A DNA stretch of 46,432 nt from Polyangiaceae bacterium. GTDB taxonomy: Bacteria; Myxococcota_A; Polyangia; Polyangiales; Polyangiaceae. A program made the position numbers and the translations under genes. Location of the stretch: contig JAKLKA010000044.1 in assembly GCA_023150915.1 (NCBI GenBank), positions 1 to 46,432 of the forward strand, written 5' to 3'. Below are positions 43,422 through 46,400 of the stretch, piece by piece. The notes below the pieces were generated by a model that had not been told where the DNA came from, made no database searches, and was given only the letters and a program-made list of their open reading frames with translations. Every line of letters starts with the position of its first letter. Within the stretch, counting starts at the first letter, position 1.

Positions 43422-46400
43422 GTGCCGCGCCGCGCTCCAGAGCGCCCGAGTCTGCCTTGCGCTGGGCGCACCACAGGTAGACAATGCCCAAGTCGACGGC
43501 GACCGGGAGGCAGACACGGCTGGCATGGGGTTCGCACGCACGCACGCACGCACGCACGCACGCACGCGTCCGCGGGGAAGCACCACAGCTATTGCTCAGC
43601 GGGCATCGACGAATTCGACGTAGCAGTCGGCACGACCTGCACGGATCCCCACCGGGGAAACGGGGCTTGGCGCATCCCCGTTCAGTTGTTCCGCGTCCCG
43701 ACTCAGCGCGTCGCGGTGTCTGTGCCGGGCAACGTCCAGTGGGCAAACGTCTGCACCTACGCGCGCACGGGGCAGGCGGTGCCTGCGTCTCGCATGCAGC
43801 CGGCACGCCTGGACAACCTTGGGTTCTCCGGCCAGTCGCTGGTGGCGTTCTACAATGTCGACCCCCCGATGGGTGCCTTGGACCCTGGCGGCGCGTTCAC
43901 GTTCGACGCAGACGGTGATGGTCGGCCTGGGTCCGATCAGATCCAGAATGGGATCGGCATCCCATCCACCGACCTCTGCCCGCTCGACAGCGGCCCTGAG
44001 CAAGACGCCGACGGTGACCACCTGTACGGCGCGTGCGACTTCGACCCGAACTTCCGCCAGACATGGGTCGGGATCGGGACGCCGGGCAAGCCGCCGGTGC
44101 CGCAGTCGTTCAATAGCTGGTCCCCGATCCCGACTGGCGCCTTCGGCGGGTTCCTGGACACCGATCAGGACGGGCCACCGGACGGCGTCGATTCGTGTCC
44201 CAAGCTGCCGCTCGCGCTCACTCCCGGAGGCGGCGTCACGGTCGACAACCGCTGGGGCGAGGATCTGAACTGGCCGCCGCACCCGATCAGCAACAACGAG
44301 CTCGGCGCGCTGCAGCGCGGAGAGACGTGCGATCCGTACCCGGCGGCGTACTCGACCTGGAACCCGAAGAACTCGTACAACAAGACCTGCGGCAGCCCCG
44401 GTTGGGTCTCGGCGGGCCAAGACGCCATCGGCGTCACGACGCGGGTCTCGCGCGGGGTCAGCGCCAACGACCCATTCTGGCTCACCCCGAAGACCGAGCT
44501 GCCGGCAGCGTTCCCGGTGCAGAGCTACCGGTGCGCGTGTCGGCACAGGATTACCGGCACGCCTTTGAACGGTGCGACTTGCGTCACGGATCCGCAGAGC
44601 GCCTGCTACCGCGGGAGCGCGCGGCGGGCCGTGCCGAGTGTTTACGACGGCCGCGGCTTTCGCCCGATCGATCGCCCGGGTTGCACGCGCGACGACAAGA
44701 CCTGGTGCGACAGCTTCCCGCTGGCCGTGCCGCGTTTCGGCTCGGAGCCTTCGAGCGTCTCGTGGCGCTGGCTCGACGAGCTGAAGGCCTTCGGGCCGGC
44801 CAGCCCGACCCCGCACTTCGCTCCGGAAGACGTGATCACCGAGCCTGCCACACCGTTCTCGGGCGCGCACCAGGGCCTGAAGCACCAGTACGCGGTCTGG
44901 AGTTTGCCCGAGATCAGCGCGCCGCCTGCGACGCCGAGCAAGCAGAGCCAGTTCTCGTCCCACTTCGACCCCGAGTACGACCCGCAGCATCGCGCCGACA
45001 AGCTGTGGGACCTCGAGAGCGATCACAGCATTCGCATGCGCGCCAGCTTCTCGGAGCAGCCGATGTCGGATCTGGTCTCGAACCACTCGGCGTTCTCGCT
45101 GAAGCCGCCCTGCGCGGTGCTGACCATCGACCAGCAGCTGGCCCTGGTGAAGCTCTGGTTCGGACCGGATCCGGTCAAGCCCGAGGTGACCGGGTTCTCG
45201 GGGCTTCGCTTGCTGGCGCACGACGGCGGGCTGGTGACCCGCGCGGTGGTGGTTCGGCCCGCAGAGGGCAGCTACGCCACGTTGACGCTCGGCACTGCCG
45301 CGGCGCAGCGCTGGCTCGCCACCGCAACGGTGCAGCTGGCGCCGGTGGGGGCCGCTGCGCCGAGCACGCCGGTGCTGGCCGCCCTCGCGGCGCCGCTGGC
45401 GTCGAGTCGAAGCCGCGCTGAAGAGCCCGCGCTGCTCGCCGTCGAGCGGGGTGCGGACGGGTCTCGCTGGGCGCTGCTGTCGCCCGTGGCCTCGGCCGAT
45501 CAGTCGATCACCTACGAGATCGCGGCCGAGGGTACGCTCCCGGCTTTAGTGAGCGAGACCGCGGTGCTGATCGCCGACCCCGCCGGGATGACCACTGCGC
45601 TGGTGGACACCGCCGGCGGTCAGCTGGTTTGGTTCTCGATGGGCTCGCGGCTCTGGACCGAGAGCGCGCTGCCGCCCGAGGTCGCGGGTCTCGACGGCGC
45701 GGCCCTCGCGCTCTGGGGCTCGCACCTGCTCGTCGCGGGTGGCGCTCGCGATGGCGTGCTCGCGGGGCAGCTGTGGGATATTGGGCTGTTCGGCGGACCG
45801 GTGTCGCTCGCGCGCTCGGATCTGCCGGCGCGCCGCGGCGCGGCGCTCAGCGTGAGCCCTGGCGGCGAGCGCATCCTCTACGTCGGCGGCAGCGACGCGA
45901 GCGGCGCGAAGCACGACGACGTGTGGCACGTCGGCCCCGGAGCCGCCGCGACCGCGCGCCTGTTCGGGGACACGACCCGCGCGAGCACGCTCGAGCTGGG
46001 CACCACTGCCGTGGTCGATGCGGTCTTCGAGGGCGCGCTGCGCGCGCTGACCCTGGATCTGGCGCGGTCGGAGCTGGTGGCGACGCGGCTCAGGACCGCA
46101 CGGGGCTGGCAAGAGGCGCGCGTCGCGGATGAAGGGCTCGCCTGCGCACCGACTGACGCGCTCGGCGGACGGCTGTGCCCTCTCGGCACCGAATGGTGGT
46201 CGAGCCCCGGCGCCGTCCCGTGCGGCGCGACCGGTGGCGCGTGCGAGGGTTCGACGGGCAGCCTTACGTCGACTGGATCACTCCCGGGCCCCGCGGTCGC
46301 GGCGGACACGGACGGCCGCTCGGTCTGGGTGCTTCGCGACAAGAGCATCGAGCGCTGGTCGGCTACGGGCTCCACGCCGGCGCTGATCGCGAGCGCAGCG

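Follow-up and report, generated by a model that had tools for sequence, protein, structure and literature searches.

Repeat-driven phase variation is best known in host-associated bacteria, with immune escape as the usual explanation. At the contingency loci of Haemophilus influenzae, tetranucleotide tracts lie near the start codon and the number of units sets the reading frame; tract length in these loci is said to have been studied by De Bolle et al., and we know of no shared, exchangeable leader among them. A tetranucleotide near the start codon, with the frame set by unit number, is also what we describe below, while the units and genes differ. The opa genes of Neisseria form another system, with several unlinked genes per genome. 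Within Myxococcota, the phylum to which Polyangiaceae belong, phase variation of Myxococcus xanthus was reportedly treated by Furusawa et al. in 2011; to our knowledge, its colony-colour switch is regulatory and has not been linked to repeat tracts. A survey of prokaryotic simple repeats, said to have appeared in PNAS in 2007, could mention myxobacteria.

In opa, CTCTT repeats in the region coding for the leader peptide switch translation on and off by slippage (PMC3960869). In Neisseria pilC, a poly-G tract in the signal-peptide region gives translational phase variation by slippage (PMC13190605); this source is a paper on myxobacterial PilY1 and mentions phase variation twice, both times for Neisseria. 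The phase variation of M. xanthus (PMC11611028) shares with the present case its stochastic nature and the phylum. No report of repeat-driven phase variation in Myxococcota was found among the surveyed papers on phase variation, simple repeats and slipped-strand mispairing, including passages of PMC11868660, PMC8538405 and PMC6321876.

Here, we analysed a CGCA array in a contig from Polyangiaceae and the loci that resemble it. Judged from sequence comparison, the array most probably belongs, as a simple-sequence contingency tract, to a multi-locus system of a Polyangiaceae lineage, and the gene copy behind it is a decapitated descendant. The loci have a common layout: a leader with a ribosome-site-like sequence and an ATG is followed immediately by a non-triplet array, a hydrophobic core or lipobox, and an ORF for an exported protein. 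As in opa, non-triplet repeats lie in the 5′ coding region for a leader peptide; unlike opa, the repeat precedes the hydrophobic core and several gene families are involved, and unit, phylum and gene content differ. The signal-peptide region as the proposed site of slippage recalls pilC, which differs in having a homopolymer and two paralogs and in belonging to a pathogen. By analogy, the myxobacterial system appears to work like opa and pilC, with no claim to membership of their gene families or, for opa, to a sequence relation.

The CGCA array and the headless gene in the window

The window, by which we mean the whole analysed stretch of 46,432 nucleotides, is contig C265 of genome G000, a draft of 8.0 Mb in 295 contigs. 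The earlier note had described a CGCA repeat before a headless body, and Tandem Repeats Finder reports this array as 8.8 copies with a 100% match, i.e. a perfect (CGCA)8.75 (Table 1); five perfect CGCA units occur at three places in G000. The body lies in frame 0, with codons at positions divisible by 3, as had been stated, and is open on the right because the contig ends at 46432. The divergent lipoprotein-like gene to the left has no Pfam family. Elsewhere in the window, at 462-513, a TCGCAG hexamer is repeated in 8.7 copies; its unit length is a multiple of three, which rules out a frame switch there.

Table 1. Coordinates of the window features and of the longest array seen elsewhere
Feature	Position	Strand	Remarks
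(CGCA)8.75 array	43533..43567	+	Ala-Arg-Thr-His repeats in all three frames, stop-free
Leader resembling that of the intact paralog	43456..43532	+	ribosome site GGGAGG at 43505-43510
ACG where the paralog has its first ATG	43516..43518	+	5 nt past GGGAGG; C111 CACATGGCTGGCATGGGG, window GACACGGCTGGCATGGGG
Surviving leader ATG (the paralog's second Met)	43525..43527	+	phase -1 to body
ATG absent from the C111 paralog leader	43484..43486	+	named in the earlier note
Apparent deletion junction, array end fused to body	43561..43575	+	window +5 aligns to paralog +531
Headless body of exported protein	43575..46430	+	952 aa to contig end, stop-free
Divergent small lipoprotein-like gene	42951..43418, start approximate	-	array ~115 bp upstream of gene
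L263 array	4183-4408 of reversed locus	-	G001:C1

The frame arithmetic of the earlier note also holds: loss of one unit brings the ATG at 43484 into frame with the body, and gain of one unit does so for the ATG at 43525. Its proposal that copy number picks between two starts is weaker for this copy, since the former ATG has no counterpart in the paralog on contig C111 and the leader ATGs of C111 share one frame. A two-start arrangement may occur in the wider set: in two of the three G002 homologs of the window gene, L022 and L023, a further ATG lies 43 nt ahead of the array in another frame, likewise out of phase, and at two G001 loci with the unit GAGCCGCA the ATGs close to the array fall into two frames. 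The earlier note had seen no signal peptide in any of the three N-termini; reading by eye likewise found none in the three frames, and the top 10-residue hydrophobicity (Kyte-Doolittle) of the body's N-terminal stretch is 0.9, versus 1.5 to 4.0 for the sequence behind the array at the 37 intact loci. In no phase does the window copy encode a complete exportable protein, and it fails as a functional contingency locus.

Homologs of the body were found in four of 59 genomes, the window's own included. The closest are the paralog on C111 of G000 (83% identity) and three genes of G002 (87, 83 and 80%); more distant ones occur in G022 (49%) and G029 (37 and 35%), and weaker matches lie on G000:C70 and G022:C19. 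The four close homologs continue for 1350-1360 residues after the array, signal peptide first (e.g. LVAGLIALAWFALSSRAGAA). Between ATG and signal peptide, C111 has 6 whole CGCA units, the G002 genes 10, 8 and 7, and the G022 gene 12, counts that are consensus states for G002 and G022 because these, like G029, are metagenome assemblies. The family member L118 in G001, of the same genus, carries (CACGCAG)12.7 instead. Both G029 homologs lack an array and carry a plain signal peptide, and no array was found at the third G000 homolog (L029, on C70). L029 (G000:C70:4500-14500) is a diverged paralog that matches at C70:6435-6836 and 7572-8189; two different open frames, of 237 and 1363 aa, hold its N-terminal part and its body, which may reflect a frameshift. 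Pfam gave no match in the window body or its paralog on C111, the G022 homolog yielded just a Kelch-like match below threshold, and the predicted structure of the N-terminal 720 residues of one G002 homolog had a mean pLDDT of 28.7.

Comparison with these homologs also shows what the window copy lacks. Its leader is 82% identical to that of C111 over 78 alignment columns, ending at the array edge, and ~525 nt of C111, comprising the signal peptide and N-terminal region, are absent between the window array and body. In full-length homologs, the signal peptide and ~160 more residues precede HHSYC, and the window join lies just before HHSYC. ACGC is present in the window array and at the join position in two G002 homologs. 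This is only ~4 nt of common sequence, which speaks against an assembly error, an explanation suggested by a draft of so many contigs with a close paralog and repeats; moreover, both leader (82% in DNA) and body (83% in protein) diverge from C111, and, apart from C111, G000 holds the missing segment solely on C70, at 42% identity. Misassembly is hence unlikely. The window copy would rather descend from a switch locus in which a deletion from the array into the body removed the signal peptide and N-terminal region; it would be silent and non-exportable in every phase, either decaying or, at most, a donor for recombination. On this sequence evidence, it belongs to an apparent phase-variation system but is damaged, having lost its signal peptide.

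The earlier note had set switching and truncation against each other. Each applies, and the two are not exclusive, the evidence backing both together. It had looked to varying unit number with intact bodies as support for switching; whole-unit counts of 6, 7, 8, 10 and 12 were indeed found, but among paralogs and other species, not among isolates of one strain. Truncation alone, with the array an inert low-complexity remnant and the gene a decaying pseudogene, would account for the lost signal peptide and N-terminal region and for the ACG in place of the first ATG, and myxobacteria are reported to be generally rich in low-complexity protein regions (PMC6821194). Yet intact homologs and unrelated exported genes alike keep the array at the same position, with varying unit and copy number, and constraint on the window body is not relaxed (dN/dS 0.196-0.255 against the four close homologs, versus 0.216-0.291 among those themselves), making truncation alone quite unlikely. 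As an explanation for the whole family, a pure pseudogene is contradicted by the arrays retained in intact homologs and unrelated exported genes.

Array loci across genomes

A search for six CGCA units matched 10 of 108 genomes of the family, with 18 arrays: 13 intact loci with the layout, the window copy, and four arrays of at least 6 units without it (L063, L068, L069 and L070). A control pattern (CCRR x6, which includes the two remaining cyclic orders of these four bases) had no match in six genomes, all six of which contain CGCA x6. Across the order, seven CGCA units were found in 8 of 183 genomes; in the only new one, G132, the array lies near a contig edge and is without the signal-peptide layout. 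The 13 intact loci include unrelated genes, namely lipoproteins, exported proteins of 1163-1636 aa, and an endonuclease/phosphatase-fold enzyme (L025 and L066, in G000 and G002; L025 matches Pfam PF03372).

The heptanucleotide CACGCAG, searched as four units, matched 5 of 108 family genomes. At least 17 places exist, with further ones in some genomes, and all 17 among those listed in the five genomes have the layout, one array being interrupted. The longest array seen has 32 units and precedes a trypsin-like lipoprotein ORF (L263; Table 1). In G034, of a further genus, a 13-unit array on C67 precedes a lipoprotein-like ORF of 611 aa (L269); this genome also matches the reversed control pattern. 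Endonuclease/phosphatase homologs in other genera carry, after the ATG, (AAGC)9 (L119 in G069) or (GA)8 (L120 in G019), which shows that repeats at the signal-peptide position reach beyond the genera with CGCA. At L118, L119 and L120, the array begins at most 5 nt from the ATG and the long frame is out of phase. No array above the thresholds was found at three other endonuclease/phosphatase homologs (L113, L122 and L123).

At these loci, a non-triplet tandem array lies between the start codon and the ORF body and is open in all frames. The arrays themselves contain no stops; where an ATG abuts an array starting with A (or GA), an overlapping TGA at this boundary stops one frame. At all but one of the 37 intact loci, an ATG begins no more than 20 nt upstream of the array (31 nt in L064, the exception), and the array would thus lie within the coding region. 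This bears on the alternative that the array acts on transcription through promoter or regulator spacing, possibly of the divergent lipoprotein gene, whose start in the window is ~115 bp off. We rejected such a spacer as an explanation for the family, with an ATG this close to the array in 36 of 37 loci, and regard it as exceedingly improbable for the window array. As part of a contingency tract read in translation, the array peptide (ARTH for CGCA, HAARSTQ for CACGCAG) would supply the Arg/His-rich n-region of the signal peptide.

Arrays were also sampled irrespective of gene content, by scanning repeat periods of 1, 2, 4, 5, 7, 8, 10 and 11 in 1.55 Mb (800 kb of G001, placed so as to cover two loci already known, plus 350 kb from G000 and 400 kb from G022). 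All seven arrays of at least 30 nt had the layout, five being new and two known beforehand, as did one of three arrays of 25-29 nt. Six new loci in 1.55 Mb correspond to ~4 per Mb and ~30 per genome, with a wide error. An ATCACGC locus in G022 is real; it was missed by the scan and found by reading. Two scan flags were left uncounted, a CTCACCC array in G022 that contains stops and, in G000, a CCCG array of 15 nt. In four other genomes of the order, at 100 kb each, no array of at least 30 nt was present, and one 13-nt GC run was flagged. Among random positions, 236 of 20000 satisfied comparable criteria; these had been fixed with the loci already known, and at least six of the 37 would strictly fail them, two through lack of a ribosome-site motif (L064 and L119) and four through an ORF below 150 aa or cut by a contig end (L255, L260, L262 and L265). 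In the 800 kb of G001, arrays of period 3 and period 9 numbered 4 and 6, versus a Markov expectation of 0.

For 22 of the 37 loci, the encoded proteins were compared with Pfam. Among the matches that reached the curated cut-off were trypsin-like domains at L256, L257, L263 and L264, and barely at L261; endonuclease/phosphatase domains at L025 and L119; RCC1 repeats at L254; and a thrombospondin type 3 repeat at L064. Below the cut-off were a subtilase (L061), a matrixin (L267) and Kelch-like or thrombospondin type 3 matches (L026, L064, L067, L118, L258, L259 and L264). Six of the 22 had no match (L021, L060, L062, L065, L266 and L269).

Reading phase, selection and possible leader exchange

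Phase was tallied for the 37 intact loci, leaving out the window copy and the interrupted L268. The ATG is in frame with the long ORF in eight (L026, L060, L065, L254, L260, L270 and the two G001 GAGCCGCA loci, which also have ATGs in another frame), at +1 in 18 and at -1 in 11. About 12 of 37 would be expected in frame if phase were random and all 37 if it were fixed; the out-of-frame share (29/37) is somewhat above the random two thirds. Between loci and species, the unit number puts the ORF in frame in some copies and out in others, and similar copies one unit apart exist (3.25 versus 4.25 and 6.86 versus 7.86). Two in-frame loci have short ORFs, L260 (G002:C152) of 131 aa and L270 (G000:C9) of 171 aa; the corresponding lengths in the homologs L264 and L266 are 1192 and 380 aa.

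Two pairs of putative orthologs are out of frame in both members, L025/L066 (dN/dS 0.107 over 885 codons) and L258/L259 (0.200 over 838 codons). Selection despite the out-of-frame state is found in these pairs and among the paralogs of the window family. Purifying selection in out-of-frame orthologs is hard to explain unless the genes are often enough switched on.

Conserved ORFs with no in-frame ATG before the array in 29 of 37 loci could instead mean that the array is a structural or charge spacer, always read through programmed frameshifting or late starts, with no switch. Between the array and the hydrophobic core, an ATG, GTG or TTG in the frame of the ORF is indeed present in 15 of 37 loci; at only one of the 37 loci (L067) does a ribosome-site-like sequence accompany such a late start, however, and in the other 22 loci no such codon follows the array, so that the signal peptide there should come from translation through the array. 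No slip site is evident that would be common to CGCA, CACGCAG, GAGCCGCA, AAGC, GCAG, ATCACGC and GA, and all three phases are represented. We therefore consider a constitutively read spacer very unlikely. A hidden start had also been considered for the out-of-frame state common to 6 of 7 CGCA loci of genus g1; it was dropped because L022-L025 and L066 have a stop in that frame just before the array, although L021 has none there. With the array as a contingency tract, slipped-strand gain or loss of one unit would move the ORF into or out of frame.

Leaders of ~130 nt, ending at the array, recur in front of unrelated genes. In G000, L256 and L266 have 137 nt of leader in common (89%) up to the array edge, with nothing detectable beyond, and the bodies of L266 and L270 agree from the array edge onward (95% over the initial 355 nt) behind different adjoining leaders. 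In G001, L118 and L264 share 127 nt of leader (84%) before unrelated bodies, and the GAGCCGCA pair, one unit apart, is 92% identical over 109 nt of leader and 95% over 87 nt after the array; ~790 nt directly after this are missing from one GAGCCGCA copy, a gap resembling the one in the window copy. Other pairs, including L025/L021 and L025/L065, show no above-threshold similarity beyond the array. L270 has ~610 nt of additional sequence behind its first 355 nt, and a leader like that of L256/L266 (80-82%), perhaps older or duplicated, lies ~560 nt upstream of the array. These pairs suggest that the arrays may act as recombination joints at which leaders are exchanged between unrelated exported genes.

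Possible significance for Polyangiaceae

The wider set of apparent switches, rather than the window copy, which is one damaged member of it, is the main finding. Slippage of units would let each cell make a random subset of these exported proteins. Extended further, this would amount to a stochastic, combinatorial exoproteome, with tens of exported proteins per genome on switches of their own, among them trypsin-like proteases, an endonuclease/phosphatase-fold enzyme and propeller-like surface proteins, and with leader and array as a mobile cassette that recruits and sometimes beheads genes; in our judgement, the arguments for and against so broad a scheme are evenly balanced.

A lineage of presumably environmental lifestyle within a predatory, social phylum appears to switch many secreted enzymes and surface proteins. 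This raises the question of whether selection comes from phage, prey, kin recognition or public-goods cheating, and the switches may have a role in predation, social life or escape from phage. The origin of such repeat switches becomes testable here, because one gene family has different units at one place and leaders have apparently been exchanged at the array.
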